Shown here: positions 6,450 to 62,931 of the stretch, one piece after another
Position numbering within the stretch: the first letter of the stretch is position 1
Layout: each line of letters starts with the position of its first letter
Assembly (NCBI GenBank): GCA_016212885.1
Contig: JACRDO010000095.1
Location: 1-64,000 of the forward strand
DNA: 64,000 bases
Direction: 5' to 3'
From: Elusimicrobiota bacterium
Lineage (GTDB): Bacteria; Elusimicrobiota; Elusimicrobia; UBA1565
The notes under the pieces: generated by a model
What the model was told of the DNA's origin: nothing
The model's database searches: none
What the model saw: only the letters and a program-made list of their open reading frames with translations
Translations under genes and position numbers: made by a program

Positions 6450-7288
6450 TGGCTGAGAAGACCAGCTACGTCAAAGAAGCCTTCAAGCGCCAGGAAAACC
6501 TGATCGCCCTGGCCGGCTTCGCCGCCGCCGGCGCCTTGTTCAACCCCGGCTTCCTGTTCCTTGGAGGGGCCATCGAGGTCGTCTACCTCTGGATGGTCGC
6601 GGGCAATCCGAGGTTCAAGCGCGTCGTGGACTCGGAGAAGAACCGAAGCAGCCTGCTCCTGGGCCAGAACGAGCGGGTGCGCATGCTCTCCACGCTGCCG
6701 GAAGCCGAGCGCGAGAGATACCTTGCCCTGGCGGACATCCGTCAGCGGGTCTACGACTCCTGGCAGTCGCGCGACTCCGTCACGCAGAGCCTGCTCCAGC
6801 CCAGCGTGGACAAGCTCGACTACCTCCTCGACACCTTCCTGCGCGCCCAGCTGACCCTCCAGCGCATGCGCGAGCATCTCTCAGGCAGCGACTTTGGGGA
6901 CCTCGAGAAGCAGGCCAAGATGCTCGAAACCGAGATCGCTCAGCGCCGCCTGCCGGACAAGCTCACGGAGGTGAAGTCCAAGAACCTGGAGATCCTCAAG
7001 CAGCGCATCGCGCGCCTCAAGAAACTGCAGGAGGACATCGCCGTGGTGCGCACCCAGCTCGACACGCTCGAGAACGCGATCCGCTTCGTCAACGACCAGA
7101 CGGTCTCCCTGAGCGACCCCCAGCAGATCACCAACGAGATCGACCGCGTCGCCTCGGAGGTGGGGGCGACCGAGAAATCCATCCAGGACGTCGAGTCGTT
7201 CCTGGGAACCCAGCAGGAGACCGACGAGAAGCGCATCGGCGAGATCCGCGCGGAGCAGCGCCAGGCGGAGGGGGAGCGCCCGGGATGA
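6450..7288 (+). CDS. Hypothetical membrane/coiled-coil protein
   Basis: Starts [48 protein letters not shown], then long heptad-rich region; adjacent to the ATPase stop, 4-bp overlap with the AAA gene. Confidence 0.75.
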
Positions 7289-9066
7289 ACCTGGAACAAT
7301 TCCCCAAGTGGGCCCAGGAGCTCGCGGACAAGTACGTGAGCGGGGCCTCGTCTTTGTTCGTGCTCTACGGCAACGTCGACGATTGGGTCCCCATGAAGGA
7401 CGTATCGAACCTTCCAAACAGCGTAGGTTCGATACGTCCAAACCTACAACGTTCGGAAGGTTTGGACGCGCGGAGCCTGCGCTACGTGTCCCTCCCGGAG
7501 TTCCTCAAGCAGGCCGTGTTCGGCACACGGGACGCGGTCATCCAGTACGACCAGGGCGGCGGCATCACGATCGGCTCGGAGGCGGCCCAGGACTTCTACC
7601 GGACCGTGGAGGCGATGGACACCGTCTCCGGCACGACCTTCTCAAAGCGCCTCCCGAAGAACCCGGCCGACGCGCTCCTCGTCATCGACCGGTTCATCCG
7701 CTCGAAGACCGCGGGCGAGGGCCGCAAGAAGGCCGGCATCGCGGTCATCATCTCCTTCGCGCACATGGTCGCCCCGCGCGGGGAGATATCCTTCATGAAC
7801 CAGGAGGACTGCCGCACCCTCATCACCCTGCAGAAGTGGGCCAGCGACCCGCTCTTCGCGCGCTCGGACGTGACCATCGTGCTGGCGACCGCAAGCCTGC
7901 AGGAGCTCAACGAGGCCTTAGTCAACAACCCCTTCACCTCCAAGATCCACGTCCCGCTCCCGGACGAAGAGGAGCGCGCCGAGTTCATCCGGGCCTCCCA
8001 GATCCCGGTCAAATACGAAGGCCTGACCCCGGAGACCTTCGCGCGGCAGACCAACGCCCTCTCCCGCGCGGACATCGAGGTGATGCTGAGGGGCGCCCAG
8101 CGGGCCGATAGGCTCGACCTGAATTTCGTGAGCGCCAAGAAGAAAGAGCTCATCGAGAAGTCCTGCTTCGGGCTGCTCGAGTTCCTGGAGCCCCGCTACA
8201 CCCTCGACGCGGTCGAGGGCCTCTGCGCGGCCAAGAGCCGCCTGCGCGAGGACATCCAGCTCATCAAGAAAGGCTGCTGGGACGCCCTGCCGATGGGCTA
8301 TCTGCTCTGCGGGCCGGTCGGCACCGGCAAGACATTTTTGAGCACCTGCGCCATCGGCGAGCTCGGCATCCCGTGCGTGCAGATGCTCAACTTCCGCTCG
8401 AAGTGGGTCGGCGCCACGGAGGGGAACCTCGAGAAGATCCTCATGACCCTGCGCGCCCTCGGGCCCGTGGGCGTGATCATCGACGAAGCCGACGCCTTCA
8501 TGGGCAGCCGGGAGCAGGAGGGGGACTCCGGCACCTCCGGCCGGATCTTCGCGCAGTTCGCGAGCCAAATGGGCGACACCAAGTACCGCGGCAAGATCCT
8601 CTGGTTCCTGCTCACCTGCCGGCCGGACCTCCTGCCCGTGGACATCAAGCGCCAGGGCCGCGTGGAGGTCCACATCCCGCTCTTCTACCCCCAGACCGCG
8701 GAGGAGAAGGTCCAGCTTTTCGTAGCCATGTCGAAAAAAGCCAAGTGGCCCGTAGAGCCGGCGGACGTGGATGTCCGATGGGTGGAAGGCAAGAAGCTCT
8801 CCGGAGCGGACATCGAAGCGGTCCTCGTCGGCGCCAAACGCAAGAGCCTTCTCGACGGCGAATCCAAGCCCGGGAAGGAGTACCTCCGCCAGGCCGCGGA
8901 AAGCTTCATCCCCGCGGCCAGCGCCGCGCAGGTTCAATACCAGGAGCTCGCGGCGGTCATCGAGTGCACGGACCTCTCGTTTTTGCCGGAGAACTACCGC
9001 AAGGCGGACCGGACGGAGATCCTGAAGGAATTCAACCGCCTGCGGGCCCTGCTGGAGGTGCGCTGA
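7285..9066 (+). CDS. AAA-family ATPase with probable degenerate N-terminal module
   Basis: Walker A CGPVGTGKTF, Walker B VGVIIDEADAF, FLLTCRPDLLP; first half lacks Walker A. Contains an in-frame Family A palindromic element (VSNLPNSVGSIRPNLQRSEGLDAR). Confidence 0.85.
   Translation: MNLEQFPKWAQELADKYVSGASSLFVLYGNVDDWVPMKDVSNLPNSVGSIRPNLQRSEGLDARSLRYVSLPEFLKQAVFGTRDAVIQYDQGGGITIGSEAAQDFYRTVEAMDTVSGTTFSKRLPKNPADALLVIDRFIRSKTAGEGRKKAGIAVIISFAHMVAPRGEISFMNQEDCRTLITLQKWASDPLFARSDVTIVLATASLQELNEALVNNPFTSKIHVPLPDEEERAEFIRASQIPVKYEGLTPETFARQTNALSRADIEVMLRGAQRADRLDLNFVSAKKKELIEKSCFGLLEFLEPRYTLDAVEGLCAAKSRLREDIQLIKKGCWDALPMGYLLCGPVGTGKTFLSTCAIGELGIPCVQMLNFRSKWVGATEGNLEKILMTLRALGPVGVIIDEADAFMGSREQEGDSGTSGRIFAQFASQMGDTKYRGKILWFLLTCRPDLLPVDIKRQGRVEVHIPLFYPQTAEEKVQLFVAMSKKAKWPVEPADVDVRWVEGKKLSGADIEAVLVGAKRKSLLDGESKPGKEYLRQAAESFIPAASAAQVQYQELAAVIECTDLSFLPENYRKADRTEILKEFNRLRALLEVR
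7401..7468. repeat. Palindromic element family A, copy A1 (two back-to-back hairpins) inside the AAA ATPase gene
   Basis: cgtatcgaac-cttccaaacagcgtag-gttcgatacg followed by cgtccaaacc-tacaacgttcggaa-ggtttggacg. Confidence 0.92.
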
Positions 9067-13929: not shown

Positions 13930-15986
13930 CGGGAAAGGGCGCAGAGCCAGGCGTGGTACGCGGGGTCCGGCTGGCGGCTCAGCCGCTCGCGCGCGATCTC
14001 GAAGGCGCGCTCCTCTCCCAGGCGCAGGAACACCAGGGGGGAGAGCAGGCTCACCGGACCCGCCTCCTTCTCGGCCGCAATCAGCTTGAGCAGGTACTGC
14101 TTGTGCTGTTCGGCGACCGGCAAGCCGGCCTTCGCGCTGCAGAGGGCGCCGCAGATCGCGATGAGCTTGGGGACCACGGCCTGGGGATTCTGCTCGCAGT
14201 AGTAATAGTAGGACTCGATCATCCCAACCTCGTTCCACAGCGCGCCGGACCCCGCCATCTTGTCGGCCGCAAGGGCATGCATCAAGAGCTGGGCCAGGAC
14301 CATCAGGTAGGCCTGCTGCGCCTGCGGCGAAGGGGAAAGATAGAACCCCGGGTCCTCGGCCGGAGCAGCCAATCCCCTCCGAAACAGCCTTTCCCTCAGC
14401 TCCGCCTCCAGCCGCAGGGCGCAGGCCCCGAGGCCTTCCGGCGCCGCGAGCGACAGATGGTCCACAACGGCCCGCTTCGCCGTGTCCCACACGTCGAGTT
14501 CGACGCAGGCGCCGGATGGCGAAGGCGCGAATACGCCGCTGACGATCAAGCCCGGCGGGTCCGGCCAGAGTCCAACCTCGATGAGCGCCGGGACGTCCCA
14601 GGCCCCGCTCACGACCGGCCCCTTCTCAGGAACGAGCGGGACCATGCATAGCGCCCGCAGGCTCGTTTTATACGTCAGCGCTTCGGCCAGGTAGAGCGGC
14701 AGGGCGCGAGAGAGGCGGCCCCGGTCGTCTTCCGCTTCCTCATAATAACCGGGCTTGGCCCCGGCCCGCTCGGCCGCCCCCAAGACCTCGGACGCGGCAC
14801 TTCCTCGCGTTATCGCTCGGTCGCCTTTGCGCATCCCATCGGCGAAGCACAAGAAGCCGATCTCGGGCGAAGAGGCCGGCCGCAGTGGCAGGAGCCAGAG
14901 AGGCTCGCACAGTCCGCGCGTCCACACCGGGCCCGGAATCCGCACCAGGGAGATCGGCGGAGACATCTGCGCAGGCCGCGGGAGGCGGTCTTCCGGGAAA
15001 TCGCGCTCAAGCCGGCTCAAGGGCTCGGCCAGGTGCGCAAGGCTCAGGCCCTTGAGGCGATTGACCAGCTCGCGGCCTTCCTTCTCGCGCCCGGTCTCGA
15101 AGAACCCCCTGGCCAAGCTCAGAGCGGCGTAAGGCGAACTCTTCTGCGGATCGTAGAGCGGCCAGGCCAACTCGAGCATCTCGGAATGGAACCCCGCGCG
15201 CTCCAAGGCGCCGGCGACAGCGGCCAAGGCGTCGCTCTCGCCAGGGGCCGCGCGGCTATGGAGCACGGCACTACCGCGCGGTCCCTGGCTTCCAGCAGCG
15301 CCAGGGGCCGCGCGGCTCTGGAGCACGGCACTACCGCGCGGTCCCTGGCTTCCAGCAGCGCCAGGGGCCGCGCCAAGCGCGCGGCGGAAAAGCTCAAAGG
15401 CTTTAGAGGCGTCGCCCTCTCCGAGGCAGAGCTGCCCCAAGCGCAGCCAGGGCCTCCAGGCCCCCGACTCTTTGGCCACGTCCTCCAGAGCGGCGCGGGA
15501 GGCTTCGGCTCCGCCGCGGTCCTTGTGGATCGCGGCGTAAGCGCTGAGCGCGCCGTCCTGGTTGGGGTCGAGGGAAAGGGCGCGGCGCAGCAGGTCCTCA
15601 GCGGATGCGGCGTCGCCCTGCGCGGAGCGGACCTTCGCGAGAGTCGCAAGCGCCGCGCCGGTCTCGCCATGCTTGGCTATGAACGCCTGGAGGGTACGTT
15701 CCGCCGCGTCCAGCAGGCCGCCCTTGATCTGCGCGGCCGCCAGGATGGTCGAAGACCTCTCCGGATTCGGGTCGATCTCGATGAGCCTCGCGATCGCCGG
15801 AAGGGCGCAGTCCAGGAACCCGTCGCCCAAGGCGCCCACGATCACCTGGTAGAGCGCGTCCGGATCGTCCCAGGTCTTCTGGAAGTTCTCCGGAAGAACT
15901 TTTTCCGCCCAATCGCTGCGCGGGACAAGGACCCGCCGGCCGTTCTCGTCGTAATAGGAGATCATCTCCTCCAAACCTTCCGCCAT
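13926..15986 (-). CDS. TPR-repeat protein, hypothetical
   Basis: TPR-like N-terminal helices; contains a 60-bp in-frame tandem repeat (Family B). Confidence 0.7.
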   Translation of the reverse strand: MAEGLEEMISYYDENGRRVLVPRSDWAEKVLPENFQKTWDDPDALYQVIVGALGDGFLDCALPAIARLIEIDPNPERSSTILAAAQIKGGLLDAAERTLQAFIAKHGETGAALATLAKVRSAQGDAASAEDLLRRALSLDPNQDGALSAYAAIHKDRGGAEASRAALEDVAKESGAWRPWLRLGQLCLGEGDASKAFELFRRALGAAPGAAGSQGPRGSAVLQSRAAPGAAGSQGPRGSAVLHSRAAPGESDALAAVAGALERAGFHSEMLELAWPLYDPQKSSPYAALSLARGFFETGREKEGRELVNRLKGLSLAHLAEPLSRLERDFPEDRLPRPAQMSPPISLVRIPGPVWTRGLCEPLWLLPLRPASSPEIGFLCFADGMRKGDRAITRGSAASEVLGAAERAGAKPGYYEEAEDDRGRLSRALPLYLAEALTYKTSLRALCMVPLVPEKGPVVSGAWDVPALIEVGLWPDPPGLIVSGVFAPSPSGACVELDVWDTAKRAVVDHLSLAAPEGLGACALRLEAELRERLFRRGLAAPAEDPGFYLSPSPQAQQAYLMVLAQLLMHALAADKMAGSGALWNEVGMIESYYYYCEQNPQAVVPKLIAICGALCSAKAGLPVAEQHKQYLLKLIAAEKEAGPVSLLSPLVFLRLGEERAFEIARERLSRQPDPAYHAWLCALSR
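15241..15372. repeat. Palindromic element family B, 60-bp tandem (2 full copies plus partial) inside the TPR gene
   Basis: 15241-15300 and 15301-15360 differ at one base; each contains CCAGGGGCCGCGCGG...CCGCGCGGTCCCTGG (15-bp arms, one mismatch). Confidence 0.95.
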
Positions 15987-19677: not shown

Positions 19678-20480
19678 GGGTGGGAGCCGACCTCGGCGGC
19701 TCCTGGCTTCGCGCGGCGGTCTGCAAAGGCCGCGGCTTTCAAAGGGCGCGCAGGAGGATCGCGGCCGGCGAGGCGCCTGAGCGCGCGCTCGCGCAGGCCC
19801 TGCGGTCCCTCGGCCTGCGGCGCGTTCGCAGACTCGTCATCGGCGCAAGGGGCGCCTGGCTTGGGTCCGAGAAGGCGGCCCTGCGCCGCCGGCTCGCCGG
19901 CCTCGCCGACGAAATCCTCGTGATCTCGGACCTGGAGCTGGCCCACCTGGCGGCCTTCTCCGGAGGGCCGGGGGTGCTCGTCGCAGCCGGAACAGGCTCA
20001 GCGGCCTACGCGCGGGACATTCGCGGCAGGAGCGCCAGAGCCGGAGGCCTGGGCCCTCTGCTGGGGGACGAGGGGTCATCCTTCTGGATCGGCCGGCGCT
20101 GGCTCTGCGCGCTCCCCGACGAGGAGATCCGCCGCTTCGCCAAGCGGCCCGACGCGGTGCGGGCCGTGGCGGCGCTCGCGCGGGTGGTGCTCGCTCGCGC
20201 GGCCAATGACCGGCGCGCCCGGGCCATCGTTCGGGAGGCATGCCAAGGGCTGGCAACGCTGGCCTCGCGCGCCGCCTCGCAGCTGACCTTCAAGGGGCCC
20301 GCTCCCCTTTCGTGGTCCGGCGGACTCTTCCGCAGCGCGCTGTTCCGGGCCGAGTTCCTGCGGAGGCTGCCGCGGAGGAAGTTCTCTCCGCGGCCCATGG
20401 AGCGCAGGCCGGAAGATGCAGCAGCCATAAGCGGCGCACCAAACATCGGGAATGCGTATCGAACTTTCCAAACGACGTAG
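19674..20480 (+). CDS. BadF/BadG/BcrA/BcrD-type or N-acetylglucosamine kinase-like ATPase
   Basis: MRVGADLGGSWLRAAV, VAAGTGSAAYARD and GPLLGDEGSSFWIG ASKHA motifs; stop codon lies inside a Family A element. Confidence 0.75.
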   Translation: MRVGADLGGSWLRAAVCKGRGFQRARRRIAAGEAPERALAQALRSLGLRRVRRLVIGARGAWLGSEKAALRRRLAGLADEILVISDLELAHLAAFSGGPGVLVAAGTGSAAYARDIRGRSARAGGLGPLLGDEGSSFWIGRRWLCALPDEEIRRFAKRPDAVRAVAALARVVLARAANDRRARAIVREACQGLATLASRAASQLTFKGPAPLSWSGGLFRSALFRAEFLRRLPRRKFSPRPMERRPEDAAAISGAPNIGNAYRTFQTT

Positions 20481-20523
20481 GTTTGGTACGTCCTGAACCT
20501 AAGCCGTATGGTTGTTCAGGACG
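20438..20523. repeat. Palindromic element family A, copy A2, across the kinase 3' end
   Basis: cgtatcgaac...gtttggtacg and cgtcctgaac...gttcaggacg (perfect 10-bp stem). Confidence 0.88.
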
Positions 20524-27308: not shown

Positions 27309-28085
27309 GTGCCTTTGTTCGACCCCTTCGGCCTGAAGAAAGAATCCGCGCAAGAGCCGGCGCCGGGCGGCGAACCGGGCCTGAAAACCGCCAAGCTCTT
27401 CCTGGGCGCCATGCTGGCGCTCAGCGCCGCGCTTACCCTCGTGTGCGCCGGAGGCCTGGCCGCGCGCGTGCGCCGTCTCGTGCTTGAGTCCAAGCCCGCG
27501 GCCGCCCTCTCCGGGAAAGGAGAACGGCGACCCTCCGAGGACGGCGCTTCCCATGGCGCGGCCGCCGCCGCGAAGCAGGCCCCGACGCAGAAGGCGCAGC
27601 CCCAGCCCGCGGCCCCTGGCGCTGCTGAAAGCCAGGGACCGCGCGGTAGCGCCGTGCTCCTTAGCCGCGCGGCCGAATCGCCCGCCAAGCCGCCTGAGCC
27701 CGCGGCGAAAGCCCACGCGCCGCCGCAGGCCAAAGCGGTCCCAGCCGCTCCCGCTCCGGCCAAGGAGGCCCCCAAGGCGCCCGCGCCGCCGCAGGCCAAA
27801 GCGGCCCCAGCCGCGCCGGCTGCCGCGCCCGCCCCAGCCAAGGCTTCCACGACGAAAAAGATCGAGTTCTCCCACTCCGACCCTTCGGCGAAGGAGGCCC
27901 TCCTCCTGGGCGCGTTCCTCGTCAGGAGCAAGGGACGCGCGGAGATGGCCAAGTTCTCCAGCGGCGAATGGCGCCTGACGCTCACTCTCGTGACCGGCAC
28001 GACCTACTCCTACCGCATCGAGACCGTGGACGGCCAGGGCAAACGCCGCGTCTCCCCCAAGCAGTCCGTCTTCGTCAGTCCCTGA
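27309..28085 (+). CDS. Hypothetical membrane protein with Ala/Pro-rich linker built partly of Family C and B elements
   Basis: N-terminal TM segment; linker contains ALSGKGERRPSEDGASHGAA (C) and GAAESQGPRGSAVLLSRAAE (B); C-terminal small domain. Confidence 0.7.
   Translation: MPLFDPFGLKKESAQEPAPGGEPGLKTAKLFLGAMLALSAALTLVCAGGLAARVRRLVLESKPAAALSGKGERRPSEDGASHGAAAAAKQAPTQKAQPQPAAPGAAESQGPRGSAVLLSRAAESPAKPPEPAAKAHAPPQAKAVPAAPAPAKEAPKAPAPPQAKAAPAAPAAAPAPAKASTTKKIEFSHSDPSAKEALLLGAFLVRSKGRAEMAKFSSGEWRLTLTLVTGTTYSYRIETVDGQGKRRVSPKQSVFVSP
27499..27567. repeat. Palindromic element family C copy in the linker
   Basis: gcggccgccctctccgggaaaggagaacggcgaccctccgaggacggcgcttcccatggcgcggccgcc. Confidence 0.85.
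27612..27674. repeat. Palindromic element family B copy in the linker
   Basis: ggcgctgctgaaagccagggaccgcgcggtagcgccgtgctccttagccgcgcggcc, near identical to the reverse complement of the 15241 repeat. Confidence 0.9.
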
Positions 28086-36829: not shown

Positions 36830-36885
36830 CGTCCCGAACATCCGAACGGCGTATCGAACTTTCCAAACGACTTAGGTTCAATACG
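36830..36885. repeat. Palindromic element family A, copy A3, supplying the stop codon of the transglycosylase gene
   Basis: cgtcccgaacatccgaacgg-cgtatcgaactttccaaacgacttaggttcaatacg. Confidence 0.85.
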
Positions 36886-38581
36886 TCCGGCTGTCCCTTC
36901 TGGAGGGGGGCATATAGTCCGAGCAGTCGAGGGATTCGCCGCCTAGATCCGCGTAATACCCGAGGACCTTCCGCACGTAATTCTTGGTTTCAGGGAAGTT
37001 CGGGATCCGCGTCTTCACCCGCCCCTCCCCGGCGTTGTAGGCCGCGACGGCCAGGACCTTGTCGCCGTCGTAGAGTTCCAGCAGCCGCGTCAGGTGGCGA
37101 ACGCCTCCGTCGATGTTCTGCTCCGGGTTGCGGGGATTGACGCCCAGGCGGCGGGCGGTGCCTGGCATGAGCTGCATCAAGCCGACGGCGCCCGCGTCCG
37201 ACACCACCATGGGATTTCCCCAAGGATTCTCGGCCCGCATGACGGCTTCCACGAGCTTTGGGTCTAAGCCGCGCTTGCCCGCGATGATCTCGATGGTCTT
37301 CCGGTAGCGCGCCACGGGATCCTTAGTCGGGATGGAAGCCGCGGGGAGGGGGGTAATCGCCTGCTTGACCTGGTCCCGGACAGCTTTCAGAGTCGGGCTC
37401 TTCACCGGCCGTACGGCTTCCACCTTGGGCTTGGAAGGCCCCTGCCGGTAGGCCCGCTCGTAGGCGGCCAGGAGGTACTTGACCTCCGGATCGTTCGGGA
37501 TGCCTCCGCTGCGCACGACCTTCCCGGTGCCGACCTGATAGGCGGCCAGGGCGCGGTGCACGTCCCCGTGGAAAAAATCCAAGAGCTTGGACAGCAGCTT
37601 CGCTCCGACCCGGATGTTCGTCTCCGGGTTCTTGAGGTCCGCGGCCTTCATGCCCACGGCCTTCGCGGCGCCCGGGGTGATGAGCAGGAGCCCGTAGGAG
37701 CCCCCGCTCGCTCGGCCGGGCTTGGCTTCGAAGCCGCCTTTGGCGGCCACGAGGGCGCGCAGAACGTCCGGACTGATCCCCGCGGCCTTCGCCTCGCTTT
37801 GGATGACGGCTTCGTAAGGGCCCAAGGGGACCGCGTCCCGAACATCCGAACGCAGTAGTTCGGGACGTATTGAACCTACGGCGTGTGGAAGGTTCAATAC
37901 GTCCGGCAGGGGCACGTCCTTGCTGAGGTTGGCGCCCACGGTCTCGATGGCCCTGGGGAATCCCAGAGAACCCGCGGGCGATGCTTTCGCCGCAACGCGG
38001 GTCCAAGGCATGAGCGGCGTCCCGAACATCCGAACGGCGTTGGTTCGGGACGTCCCAAACCTACGCATTTCGGATGTTTGGGACGACGCGAGTGCATCGC
38101 GCACCGCGCTGTTGTCATAAAAGGCGGCAGGATCCTTCGCCCCCGCGGCCGCGCTCATGTCCAAAGTCTTCTTCGCGGCCGCGAGCTCCGCGCGCCGGGA
38201 AAGCTCCGGAGACTTCTCCTGCTGAGCCCGGGGCTCGAAGCCCTCCGGCCGCTCCTCGAAGCGGATGTTGTCCTTGCCCCAGACGGCCTTGAGGAGCTCG
38301 ATCGACTCCGCGGCCTCCTCCGCCTGCTGGAGCGTCCACGTGGAAGCGGTGAACCGCAGCTCCGCCATGCCGTTCTCCGTGTCCTCTACGAGGCTCTTGC
38401 CGGCGCCTAGGCCCACCAAGCCGAGGATCCGGGGCTCGGTGGCGTTCAGCTTCTCCTGCGCCTCGACACTCACGCCCTCAGGCATGCGCAGGACCACGCG
38501 GACATCGGCGCTCGCGGAGAAGGAGAGGAAGAGCAGTCCGAGGGAGGCTGCGGCGGAGATCCTGCAGGCTGGGCCCTTCAT
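36878..38581 (-). CDS. Lytic transglycosylase with two SLT domains
   Basis: ALVAAKGGFEAKPGRASGGSYGLLLITPGAAKAVG and VEAVMRAENPWGNPMVVSDAGAVGLMQLMPGTARRLGV. Two in-frame Family A insertions plus A3 at its end. Confidence 0.85.
   Translation of the reverse strand: MKGPACRISAAASLGLLFLSFSASADVRVVLRMPEGVSVEAQEKLNATEPRILGLVGLGAGKSLVEDTENGMAELRFTASTWTLQQAEEAAESIELLKAVWGKDNIRFEERPEGFEPRAQQEKSPELSRRAELAAAKKTLDMSAAAGAKDPAAFYDNSAVRDALASSQTSEMRRFGTSRTNAVRMFGTPLMPWTRVAAKASPAGSLGFPRAIETVGANLSKDVPLPDVLNLPHAVGSIRPELLRSDVRDAVPLGPYEAVIQSEAKAAGISPDVLRALVAAKGGFEAKPGRASGGSYGLLLITPGAAKAVGMKAADLKNPETNIRVGAKLLSKLLDFFHGDVHRALAAYQVGTGKVVRSGGIPNDPEVKYLLAAYERAYRQGPSKPKVEAVRPVKSPTLKAVRDQVKQAITPLPAASIPTKDPVARYRKTIEIIAGKRGLDPKLVEAVMRAENPWGNPMVVSDAGAVGLMQLMPGTARRLGVNPRNPEQNIDGGVRHLTRLLELYDGDKVLAVAAYNAGEGRVKTRIPNFPETKNYVRKVLGYYADLGGESLDCSDYMPPSRRDSRTY
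37834..37901. repeat. Palindromic element family A, copy A4, inside the transglycosylase gene
   Basis: cgtcccgaac...gttcgggacg, cgtattgaac...gttcaatacg; protein VLNLPHAVGSIRPELLRSDVRDA. Confidence 0.92.
38018..38085. repeat. Palindromic element family A, copy A5, inside the transglycosylase gene, different reading frame
   Basis: cgtcccgaac...gttcgggacg, cgtcccaaac...gtttgggacg; protein SSQTSEMRRFGTSRTNAVRMFGT. Confidence 0.92.
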
Positions 38582-43399: not shown

Positions 43400-45937
43400 C
43401 TAGCCGAGTTTCCCGAGGCGCCAGCGCAGGTACAGGTAGGCGATCCCGATCGGGATCAGCATGAAGGAGAGGTAGGTGAACGGCGTCAGCCCGGCCGCGG
43501 CCTTGAAGAGGTACTTCATCCCCACGAGGCCGAGGGTGGTGATGGCCAGAGAGGCCGAGCCCAAGAATCCCATCGCGTCCGCCATGTCTTCCTTGCGCGG
43601 GACCCGGGCCTGGAAGAAGCTCTGCAGCTTGAGCGTCGAGATGACCTGCGCGATCCCGAACGGGATCAGGGCAAGGGCGGGGAGAGTCAGGCTCGAGGCC
43701 CATGAGAGGAAGGCCGGGAGCGCCGCCATGGCGCCCAAGGTCGGCAGCGGCAGGGCCAGCGTGGCGAGCAGGGAGAGGCCCCCGGTCCCGAGGAGGAGCC
43801 AGCGCAGGAGCGACTTCCTGAGGATTTGCGCTTCCTGCGCATCGTCGATCTGCCCGGACTCCTTGCCCTTGGCGATCCGGTTGCCCTCCATCGTCATCAG
43901 CAGCCCGCCCAGCAGGCCGCCCGCGCTGTAGAGGCCGGTCAGCCAGCCGCTCACCGAGGTGGCCAGCTCCGAGTTGGCGGCGCCCACCAGCGCCAGCGCG
44001 TAGCCGGGCGCCATCATCTGATAAAGGAAAGGGTTGAGCATCATGACCAGGGAGTAGGCGATGAAGCTCAGGCGCAGGGCCGGAGCCCTCCAGACGAGCT
44101 TCGCGCCGCGGCCGATCTTTTGGAAGAAGCCCTTGAAGACGGCCCCTACGCCGCCCGGGCGGCTCTGCGGCCGCTCGCTCTTCAACTCGGATTTAGGAGG
44201 CAGGCGCAGGGTCTTCCATACGATCATCGCGGAAGCGAGAGCCGCGACCGGGAATGCGATCAGCGCGGGCATGAAGCCGAAGCTTGACACCACGATCCCG
44301 GTCACGATCGGCCCGGCGATCCCGATGATCTCGACGAGGGTGTGCTCGATGGACCAGAACCTCTCGAGCGCCGAGTTCTTCTGGCCCACCAAAAGCGGCG
44401 GGATGCTGTTGAGCGCCGTGATCGTCACCCCGAAAATCAGCGCGTTGACGGAGTAGAAGCCGATCATCAGAGGAAGGGTGATGTGCCCTGTGGCGAGCAG
44501 GCCGATGAGCGCCGAGATGGAAGCCAGCCTGAGGAGCATGGAGCCGAGGTACGTCTTCCTGATCCCGAACTTCTCGACTAGGACGGGCCCGATCTGCCGC
44601 CCGATGATGCCCGCGATGGAGGAGAACACCGCGAGCTGGGCCACGACGGTGAAATCGCCGAAGGCCTTCTGCACCAGGGTGGGCATCGCCGCGCCGAGGG
44701 CCTCGATGCCCACCTGGGCCACCAGCAGGGAGGAGATGAACCACCAGGCCACCTTGCCCAGAGCGGAGCGCTCCTTCTTCTCCTGCGCGGGCGCCGGGTC
44801 CGTCTTCGGAGCCTCTTGGATGTTGGCCGCGTTCGGGATGGCTGACGGGGGGAGGGAGAGCTGAGCCTCCGCGCCGACCGCCTCGGAAACCGGGGAGAGC
44901 TGAGCCTCCGCAGCTTCGACGCTCTCGAGCGCCAGCTGAGCCGGGGTCCCGGCGGCCTTGCCGGCTTGGACCTTGAAAGCCAAGCCCGCGTTCTCATCCG
45001 GAAGGCTGATGACGCGCCGGCCCAGGAACGGGATCTTCGAGAGCCAGCCTCCGGCCTTCACCGGAGCCTGGGAGGGGGAAGCTGTCTCGCCTTGCGCTTC
45101 TGCGCCGCTCAGCTCGCCCAGGGCGCGCGCGTCGGACCGGAGATCCTCGGAATCCTGCCGTCCGGAGAAGAGCCTCTTCAGCTCTTCGAAGCGCCGGCCC
45201 AGGGTGTTCGGTCGGCCGCGCAGCTGCTGAAGGGAAGAGGCGCCTTGCTCGACGACGGGGACCTCTCCGACATCCGTTGTGCGGACATCGCCCGACTGCG
45301 CGGCCGCAGGGACCCCGCGCGGACCGACCAAGGACGCGGCAGGCGCCGACACCGAAGCGTCCATGGCGCGTTCGCGCAAGACCGCGGGGGCCTGGAAAGG
45401 GACGGGCTGCATCCCGCCGCCGGAGGGCCGCAGAAGCGGGACCCGCTGGGGCGCTGCCCCAGGGGCGGCGATGACGGAGGCGGGCAGCACGAGCGACGCG
45501 GCGGAGGGCGAAGCGGTGACGGAGGGCTCCACGACCGGGGTCGGCACGGAGAGGGGGGAGACGAGCCCGTTCGAGATATTCCCCATGAAGCCCGGAAGGC
45601 TGGTCTGGATGCGGATGTTCTGCAGGCTGAGCGCTCCAACTCCAGCCGCGCCGAGGTTCAGGCCGCCGACCGGGGTGTTGACCTTGATCGGGGTCGGAGC
45701 GGTCTGCGCCGCGGCCTGGGTGGGGCCGATGCCTGGGGCCGTGAGGAGGAGCGCGAGCGCCAGAGCGAGGCAAAGCGCGCGCTTGGCCGTACCAAACATC
45801 CAAAATATGTAGGTTCGGTACGTCCCGTCCAAACCTTCCGAACGTCGTAGGTTTGGACGTATCGAACCTACGCAGTTTGGAAAGTTCGATACGAACCAAC
45901 GTCGTTTGGATGTTCGGGACGCCGTAAGGACCTTCAT
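43400..45937 (-). CDS. MFS transporter with long secreted-type Pro/Ala-rich N-terminal extension
   Basis: Signal-peptide-like MFGTAKRALCLALALALLLTAPGIGPTQAAAQ, about 300 aa low-complexity extension, then multi-TM MFS domain. True start may be MFGT, inside a Family A element. Confidence 0.75.
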   Translation of the reverse strand: MKVLTASRTSKRRWFVSNFPNCVGSIRPNLRRSEGLDGTYRTYIFWMFGTAKRALCLALALALLLTAPGIGPTQAAAQTAPTPIKVNTPVGGLNLGAAGVGALSLQNIRIQTSLPGFMGNISNGLVSPLSVPTPVVEPSVTASPSAASLVLPASVIAAPGAAPQRVPLLRPSGGGMQPVPFQAPAVLRERAMDASVSAPAASLVGPRGVPAAAQSGDVRTTDVGEVPVVEQGASSLQQLRGRPNTLGRRFEELKRLFSGRQDSEDLRSDARALGELSGAEAQGETASPSQAPVKAGGWLSKIPFLGRRVISLPDENAGLAFKVQAGKAAGTPAQLALESVEAAEAQLSPVSEAVGAEAQLSLPPSAIPNAANIQEAPKTDPAPAQEKKERSALGKVAWWFISSLLVAQVGIEALGAAMPTLVQKAFGDFTVVAQLAVFSSIAGIIGRQIGPVLVEKFGIRKTYLGSMLLRLASISALIGLLATGHITLPLMIGFYSVNALIFGVTITALNSIPPLLVGQKNSALERFWSIEHTLVEIIGIAGPIVTGIVVSSFGFMPALIAFPVAALASAMIVWKTLRLPPKSELKSERPQSRPGGVGAVFKGFFQKIGRGAKLVWRAPALRLSFIAYSLVMMLNPFLYQMMAPGYALALVGAANSELATSVSGWLTGLYSAGGLLGGLLMTMEGNRIAKGKESGQIDDAQEAQILRKSLLRWLLLGTGGLSLLATLALPLPTLGAMAALPAFLSWASSLTLPALALIPFGIAQVISTLKLQSFFQARVPRKEDMADAMGFLGSASLAITTLGLVGMKYLFKAAAGLTPFTYLSFMLIPIGIAYLYLRWRLGKLG
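45788..45922. repeat. Palindromic element family A, long copy A6 (several hairpin units)
   Basis: About 100 bp nearly identical to the reverse complement of copy A8 (60483-60619). Confidence 0.93.
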
Positions 45938-57637: not shown

Positions 57638-58168
57638 GTGATACACCGCAACGGCAAGCACGCCAACGAGCGCCGCAAGCACCGCCGCTTCAGCGTGGTC
57701 CAAGACCTGGTCGAGCCGATCGTCCTGCGCTATGCGGACCGGAAAGGCGCCAAGGGCGAGGACATCCCGAGGCACCTGCGCACCCAGCCGGCCATCCTGA
57801 CGAACCTCTCTGCGGGAGGGATGTCGCTCGTCACCTTCCTCGCCCCGCCGCACGCAAAGGTCTTCAAGATGACCCTGACGATCCCGGGCTTGGACAACCT
57901 GCCCATCGAGGGCAAGGTCGTCCGCGTCATGAAGAAGGGGGAAATCTTCACCGTCGGCATCCAGTTCGTCAAGATCGCCAAGAAGTACCGGAAGATGATC
58001 AACCGGATGGCGGAAGACGACGCCGACTGCAAGACGCGCATCTCGCTCGGCCTTCCCGATGTCTGCGCGCCGGAGTGCGCCTTCCATGGGCTGTGCTCCA
58101 AGACGCAGAGATCGAATCCTTGGCACAAACCTACGACCTCCGGAAAGTTTGGACGTTCCAAGACTTAA
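57638..58168 (+). CDS. PilZ domain protein
   Basis: RRKHRRFSVVQDL, LTNLSAGGMSLVTF, GKVVRVMKKGEIFTVGIQFVKI. Confidence 0.75.
   Translation: MIHRNGKHANERRKHRRFSVVQDLVEPIVLRYADRKGAKGEDIPRHLRTQPAILTNLSAGGMSLVTFLAPPHAKVFKMTLTIPGLDNLPIEGKVVRVMKKGEIFTVGIQFVKIAKKYRKMINRMAEDDADCKTRISLGLPDVCAPECAFHGLCSKTQRSNPWHKPTTSGKFGRSKT
58122..58155. repeat. Decayed Family A unit, copy A7, at the pilZ 3' end and miaA 5' end
   Basis: gcacaaacctacgacctccggaaagtttggacg aligns with cgtccaaacctacgacgttcggaaggtttggacg. Confidence 0.75.
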
Positions 58169-60482: not shown

Positions 60483-60619
60483 CGTCCCGAACATCCAAAC
60501 GACGTTGGTTCGTATCGAACTTTCCAAACTGCGTAGGTTCGATACGTCCAAACCTACGACGTTCGGAAGGTTTGGACGGAACGTCCCAAACCTACGAATC
60601 CCCGATGTTTGGAACGTCC
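60483..60619. repeat. Palindromic element family A, long copy A8, immediately upstream of plsY
   Basis: At least four hairpin units; reverse complement nearly identical to A6. Extra half unit ttcggaaagtttggacgac at about 60431-60450. Confidence 0.95.
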
Positions 60620-62111: not shown

Positions 62112-62611
62112 TGGAGCCGACGGCGCCCTCCTTGGGGCGGCCGCCCTCTTCGGGAAAGGAGAACGACAGCCCTACGAGGACGGCGCCCTCCTTGGGGCGG
62201 CCGCCCTCTTCGGGAAAGGAGAACGACAGCCCTACGAGGACGGCGCCCTCCTTGGGGCGGCCGCCTCTGCCTGATAAGGATTTCTTCAACATCGGCGAGG
62301 CCGGCCGGATCGCGCAGGTGCCTGAATACACCCTGCGCTACTGGGAGAGGCGCTTTGGCATGCTCCGCCCGGTGCGCCGCGAGAGCGGGCACCGCCGCTA
62401 CACCCGGCGGGACATCGAGACCATCCTCCGGATCAAGGAGCTCCTGCAGGGCCGGAAGATGACCGCGGCCGGCGCGCGCAAGCTGCTCCTTGCGCGGGCC
62501 GCGTCCGAGAGAAAGTCAGCGGGGCAGCCGCTCCGGCTGGACGCGCAGGCGCTGAAGCTCCTGCGCGACGTTCGGGAGGACCTCCGCGAGATTATCGCGG
62601 AGCTGCAATGA
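62111..62611 (+). CDS. MerR-family transcriptional regulator with Family C repeat-encoded N terminus
   Basis: FNIGEAGRIAQVPEYTLRYWERRFGMLRPVRRESGHRRYTRRDIETILRIKELL; N-terminal TAPSLGRPPSSGKENDSPTR repeats. Confidence 0.9.
   Translation: MEPTAPSLGRPPSSGKENDSPTRTAPSLGRPPSSGKENDSPTRTAPSLGRPPLPDKDFFNIGEAGRIAQVPEYTLRYWERRFGMLRPVRRESGHRRYTRRDIETILRIKELLQGRKMTAAGARKLLLARAASERKSAGQPLRLDAQALKLLRDVREDLREIIAELQ
62119..62265. repeat. Palindromic element family C, 60-bp in-frame tandem (2 full plus partial copies)
   Basis: gacggcgccctccttggggcggccgccctcttcgggaaaggagaacgacagccctacgag repeated at 62119, 62179 and 62239 (partial). Confidence 0.97.
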
Positions 62612-62671
62612 GCCTCCCACACGGCGTAGGTTCATTGCGTCCCGAACTACGTCGTTTGGATGTTCGGGACG
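62605..62671. repeat. Palindromic element family A, copy A9, supplying the merR stop codon
   Basis: gcaatgagcc...ggttcattgc and cgtcccgaac...gttcgggacg hairpins. Confidence 0.88.
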
Positions 62672-62684
62672 GGACGTGACTCAT

Positions 62685-62756
62685 CGGGGAGTGGCTCAAT
62701 GGCAGAGCGCTCGCTTGGGGTGCGAGAGGTTCTGGGTTCGATTCCCAGCTCCCCGA
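62685..62756 (+). tRNA. tRNA-Pro (anticodon GGG)
   Basis: CGGGGAG/CTCCCCG acceptor, CTCGC-TTGGGGT-GCGAG anticodon arm, CTGGG-TTCGATT-CCCAG T arm. Confidence 0.95.
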
Positions 62757-62931
62757 TGGGACCTTTGGCGGCGACATAGGCGGCAGGGCCTGTCATCCGG
62801 GCCCCTCCCGCCGCTGCGGTGCTCAGACGGAAAATTGCGCGCCTCGCGGCGGTCCGCCTTCCCGGATGCCACCCGCCGCTTCAACGCCGCGGTTGGTCTG
62901 AGGGTTGCCGGGAATGCTAAGATGCTGGAAC

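Follow-up and report, generated by a model that had tools for sequence, protein, structure and literature searches.

The lytic transglycosylase (SLT) gene in the window, which is the whole 64,000-nt stretch of Elusimicrobiota DNA analysed here, carries copies of a dispersed palindromic repeat, Family A, that is in all likelihood a non-autonomous mobile element. According to this explanation, which we consider likely as a whole, the element inserts at a CG dinucleotide, lengthens its target by 66 nt, contributes a translated 22-residue peptide where it lies in a gene, and would be mobilised in trans by an HUH-type enzyme. The coordinates of the SLT gene, of its three copies (A3, A4 and A5) and of the other copies in the window are collected in Table 1.

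Table 1. Family A copies in the window and the gene that hosts three of them.
Feature	Positions	Strand	Description
Lytic transglycosylase (SLT) ORF	36878..38581	minus	567 aa, host of inserts; TGA stop 36878-36880; from the ORF list
A5	38018..38085	.	Intact 68-nt element, class a-b; hairpins 38018-38052 and 38051-38085 with common CG
A4	37834..37901	.	Intact 68-nt element, class a'-c; hairpins 37834-37867 and 37866-37901
A3	36830..36888	.	Truncated, decayed; partial unit 36830-36849 and hairpin 36850-36885
AAA ATPase gene copy	7401..7468	+ (ORF 6457-9066)	Class c-d; exact 22-aa insertion versus two orthologues
Nested composite	45788..45921	.	c-d element 45826-45893 at a CG inside an a-b element; 134 nt = 68 + 66
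Second nested composite, same type	60483..60616	.	Inner element 60511-60578; 134 nt = 68 + 66
Decayed element and remnant	20439..20523	.	Hairpins 20455-20490 and 20489-20523
Class c-a' element	62604..62671	.	Directly upstream of tRNA-Pro gene (62684-62757)
One-unit remnant	58126..58155	.	30 nt

An earlier note on this DNA had claimed three Family A copies in the SLT gene, and the sequence and its open reading frames placed A4 and A5 inside the gene and A3 at its stop codon. As full elements the claim held for the intact A4 and A5 but not for A3, which is partial and decayed and retains 20 nt from one unit and a single complete hairpin of 36 nt. The peptides quoted in the note for A4 (VLNLPHAVGSIRPELLRSDVRDA) and A5 (SSQTSEMRRFGTSRTNAVRMFGT) were correct, and so was its account of the frames: A4 and the copy in the AAA ATPase gene, which encodes VSNLPNSVGSIRPNLQRSEGLD, share a reading frame, and A5 uses another. 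The last residues of the SLT protein and its TGA codon, read from 36880 to 36878 within TATTGAACC, were likewise found to be supplied by A3. The C terminus, which the note had wanted checked for truncation, is hardly affected; it is about as long as those of relatives, in which the tail is variable too, and here that tail is replaced by A3. A3 is a third, truncated copy that ended up over the SLT stop codon. The ORF contains two SLT stretches (Pfam SLT, 7.7e-38); A5 lies in the linker that joins the N-terminal domain to the first SLT domain, and so does A4. Both are 68 nt long with the two flanking CGs counted, and for each we infer a net gain of 66 nt, that is 22 codons and not 23. A chance origin is excluded by the dozens of matches that the 68-nt A5 query gave within its own genome (best E ~1e-17).

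The comparison with SLT orthologues that the note had called for was run, and neither A4 nor A5 was present in any of the eight aligned relatives. The best of these, from the same genus, is 75% identical over residues 247-565, and the other seven are more distant; because the linker around A4 and A5 is variable, the exact ends of the inserts cannot be read in this gene. One might regard the segments as conserved, selected protein features of the SLT enzyme, given that the reading frame is open through both inserts and that both lie between domains, but their absence from all eight orthologues refutes this, and the same DNA also turns up between genes and, read in other frames, in unrelated genes, so that we give the idea practically no credence. 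The note's argument for insertion at the DNA level, as against a conserved peptide domain, is upheld by the orthologues and by the several different frames used across 18 genic copies of the family.

In each Family A copy two different stem-loops, inverted relative to each other, form a doublet around a shared central CG. The stem-loops measure 34, 35 or 36 nt, and the combinations 35+35, 36+34 and 34+36 all yield a 68-nt doublet with both end CGs counted. The doublet scan was preset to 68 nt, and a unit scan without a preset length agreed with it, finding just a few copies of 67-69 nt. Stems are 10-12 bp and loops 12-15 nt long; units begin with CGT paired with ACG, and in most the start is CGT, often CGTC. 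Among the class-c elements (n = 28), 96.6% of cells form the two-hairpin structure, versions of that structure slid along the sequence paired at 49% or less, and two-sided changes were seen in 10 of 21 pairs versus 3.0 in shuffles (0/500). When class c-d was folded as one long hairpin, only 54% of positions paired. The 0.98 Mb sampled from the source genome contained 58 doublets and only two complete lone hairpins outside dimers or composites. Rfam returned no match at the gathering score, only sub-threshold matches to miRNA hairpins, and the core motif of integron attC sites is one that we take not to fit Family A.

A CG flanks every intact copy on both sides. Exactly 22 additional residues were found in RibF of the source genome (L099) relative to its orthologue(s), inside the flavokinase domain, and likewise in the window's AAA ATPase and in an M2 peptidase (L122), each relative to a same-genus orthologue and one further orthologue. 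Insertions of one copy into another obey the same rule (CG, +66 nt) and serve as empty sites within the genome; for example, ACGTATTTC-CG-ATGTTTGGTACG is unbroken in other copies (L053 10243) and is divided at its CG in L044 16036. Beyond the CG no strong target consensus was seen, and a preference for hairpin loops as targets was rejected, the 58 non-nested sites showing no stem excess over random CG sites (p = 0.27). A gain of 66 nt is divisible by three, and stop codons are missing from most of the element's frames, so that insertion into a gene would add a translated peptide of 22 residues. The product of duplicating two bases would be the same as that of cutting one strand after CG with the CG carried at the right end, so the sequence by itself cannot tell the two apart.

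The sample amounts to ~26% of the source genome and was partly biased towards matches, which bears on its count of 58 elements; contigs taken in number order held 4 elements in 228 kb, and a first look by whole-genome search listed 107-127 candidates. Copies up to 99-100% identical were found at different loci, which indicates recent spread. A simple codon score rates ~88% of the sampled DNA as coding, and by a conservative count 18 of the 58 elements could be confidently assigned to genes, 16 of them through their coding score and the other two being the copies in AAA and RibF; from this disparity most genic insertions seem to have been lost. Elements with a coding signal on both sides were open in the host frame in 16 of 16 cases, versus 264 of 348 frames overall (76%, p ~0.012). 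Since all of these are open and several frames are used, it is DNA that was inserted, and translation of the insert is probable. Class c fell into one frame in 7 of 10 cases, a preference that was not retained because p was 0.08 once the codon phase of CG was allowed for; the bias is explained by the position of CG in codons. Many genic inserts lie between Pfam domains or at domain edges, and three lie inside domains (helicase AAA_12, flavokinase and peptidase M2). Two large ORFs (L053 9747-13115 and L055 801-4049) each contain two Family A elements, as the SLT gene does.

A sequence search of 341 genomes from the phylum detected Family A in six: the source genome, its congener (G001), a genome of another family in the same order (G041), and three from elsewhere in the class (G056, G227 and G179). 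The nearest named record is the Elusimicrobia MAG UBA9639, and phage and plasmid collections and IMG/VR gave no match. In the other five genomes most copies have the same architecture and follow the CG and 66-nt rules, with a few variants of 67-70 nt. It is scarcely conceivable that the repeat is an assembly or binning artefact: the source is a draft metagenome-assembled genome of 174 contigs and some copies lie near contig ends, yet most are contig-internal with unique flanks, and five other assembled genomes contain the same element. The congener and G179, which belong to different families, share a 564-nt segment at 93% identity (L069 1-564 and L162 1278-1841) that comprises two elements beside an IS91-like transposase remnant, and this suggests horizontal transfer or carriage.

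In the congener, Family A also occupies the T-loop CG (GGTT-CG-AGTCC) of three tRNA-Asp-like genes (L079, L081 and L083). ARAGORN calls these genes only once the 66 nt are taken out, one interrupted copy has an intact tRNA-Asp gene nearby, and the orientation of the element varies among the T-loop copies, which suggests that more than one insertion may have struck the same spot. Mitochondrial byp elements are inserts that ribosomes bypass, and one could suppose that Family A is similarly bypassed, or spliced from the transcript, so that the protein lacks it. We consider this very improbable: the double hairpin is stable and the recognition of the tRNA-Asp-like genes only without their inserts would fit removal, but removal would not lead one to expect all 16 scored genic copies to be open in frame, and the intact tRNA-Asp gene means that the inserted ones need not function.

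Two further dispersed families were observed alongside Family A. One, of ~60 nt (CTCTCCGGGAGAGGAGA...GAGGACGGCG), occurs in the window at 27498-27571 and 62119-62270 and at L057, L130, L050, L111 and L126; its flanks are apparent variable direct repeats of ~9 nt, its net length, too, is apparently divisible by three, and it hosts nested Family A copies, as in the helicase gene of L050. The other is palindromic with a 60-nt unit (CGCCAGGGGCCGCGCGGC...), is arranged in tandem in the window (15239-15372 and 27608-27674), and occurs at L044, L098 and L114.

Under the mechanism that we propose, the doublet of inverted stem-loops with its common central CG would be the mobile unit, and its insertion at a CG would leave CG at both ends of a target made longer by exactly 66 nt. 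The element, folded as single-stranded DNA, would be cut at CG and moved in trans by an HUH-type (RAYT-like) enzyme, and copies would persist where the 22-residue peptide is tolerated, which in the SLT protein would be the linker between the N-terminal and SLT domains. An HUH enzyme acting in trans is favoured because the conserved object is a hairpin pair and because TnpAREP enzymes pick a dinucleotide cutting site; they cut at CT or CA, and altering the guide tag of one enzyme can shift this choice (PMC8266576). Taken alone, this enzymatic step is the weakest link and is offered tentatively, as plausible but short of probable. No mobilising enzyme or transposase linked to the family was found. 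The source genome has three Y1_Tnp (RAYT-like) genes without flanking units, the nearest element being ~2 kb away and inside a gene; Y1 genes are equally present in relatives that lack elements, and none was found in element-bearing G056, a genome that is 82% complete. RAYT presence was therefore rejected as a predictor of the family, Y1 genes occurring with and without elements. An IS91-like Y2 transposase was also rejected as mobiliser: G179 has a remnant of one next to two elements, and the segment shared with the congener includes both, but the source genome yielded no Y2 gene.

A different enzyme is invoked if Family A is a MITE of an ordinary DDE transposase, with a 2-bp CG target-site duplication and with the hairpins as subterminal inverted repeats, a proposal that shares the reading as a mobile insert and differs in the enzyme only. 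The CGs that flank each intact copy resemble such a duplication, the ends are palindromic, and the net 66 nt would equal 64 + 2. We nonetheless judge it unlikely, because no autonomous relative or parent with the same terminal repeats was seen in the 0.98 Mb sample, neither of the two complete lone hairpins there lies in an evident longer element, and covariation maintains two separate hairpins, where a MITE needs terminal repeats only. It is doubtful, too, that a CG-targeting mobile system with an enzyme outside the known ones is at work, in which selection for in-frame insertion would hold the length at exactly 66 nt, protein genes and even tRNA T-loops would be the habitat, and 22-residue insertions would accrue steadily in Elusimicrobia proteins.

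Among described systems, the Rickettsia palindromic elements (RPE-1 and others; Ogata et al. 2000) are of 105-146 bp, with the target-site duplication listed as unknown (PMC2229807). Family A resembles them in consisting of dispersed palindromes that are found between genes, in frame in conserved protein genes and in RNA genes, with no known transposase (PMC2229807), and its in-frame insertions in RibF, AAA, M2 peptidase and SLT genes are absent from orthologues. It differs from RPEs, by their description, in the fixed 66-nt gain at CG, the strict two-hairpin doublet and its occurrence in Elusimicrobia. With the REPIN/BIME elements of RAYT enzymes, for which dinucleotide cutting is known, it shares an inverted stem-loop doublet that spreads to many copies per genome (PMC3116915, PMC8266576), and the excess of doublets over complete single hairpins in the sample agrees with the doublet as unit. 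Unlike REPIN/BIME, it has no unpaired GTAG at the stem foot (CGTAG occurs in a loop only), no RAYT gene flanked by units, and many copies in genes. CGTC-tagged REPs, including RPE-4, RPE-6 and dRS3, have an unpaired CGTC, an 8-9 bp stem starting with AT pairs and a loop of 4-5 nt, and their intragenic dimers, most often in R. conorii and O. terrae, encode 20-30 residues (PMC3733652). Family A is similar in its CGT(C) starts, its mostly inverted dimers with many heterodimers, and the lack of a dedicated transposase, but its CGT is paired with ACG, its stems do not start with AT pairs, its loops are of 12-15 nt, and its partners share one CG where those of CGTC REPs have a separate spacer. Double hairpins of fungal and sponge mitochondria are by description also mobile, with conserved stems, and occur inside genes; they are not removed from transcripts in fungi and are AT-rich in sponges (PMC2800124), and unlike Family A they are organellar.

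Family A works like REPIN and RPE palindromes yet fails the tested tags of GTAG and CGTC REPs. No description of such elements in Elusimicrobia was found in the open-access papers searched, and Family A and its CG rule look new, set apart from the RPEs by the descriptions of the latter. The finding adds Elusimicrobia to the bacteria with in-frame palindromes, which had mainly been described in Rickettsia and in a small number of REP-rich genomes. The rule is unusually exact (CG target, +66 nt, 22 codons), which opens the mobilising enzyme and the effect on proteins to testing, and the nested copies and orthologue pairs provide ready empty and filled sites. For annotation it carries a warning: inserts of 22 residues in Family A genomes are mobile DNA and not domains.
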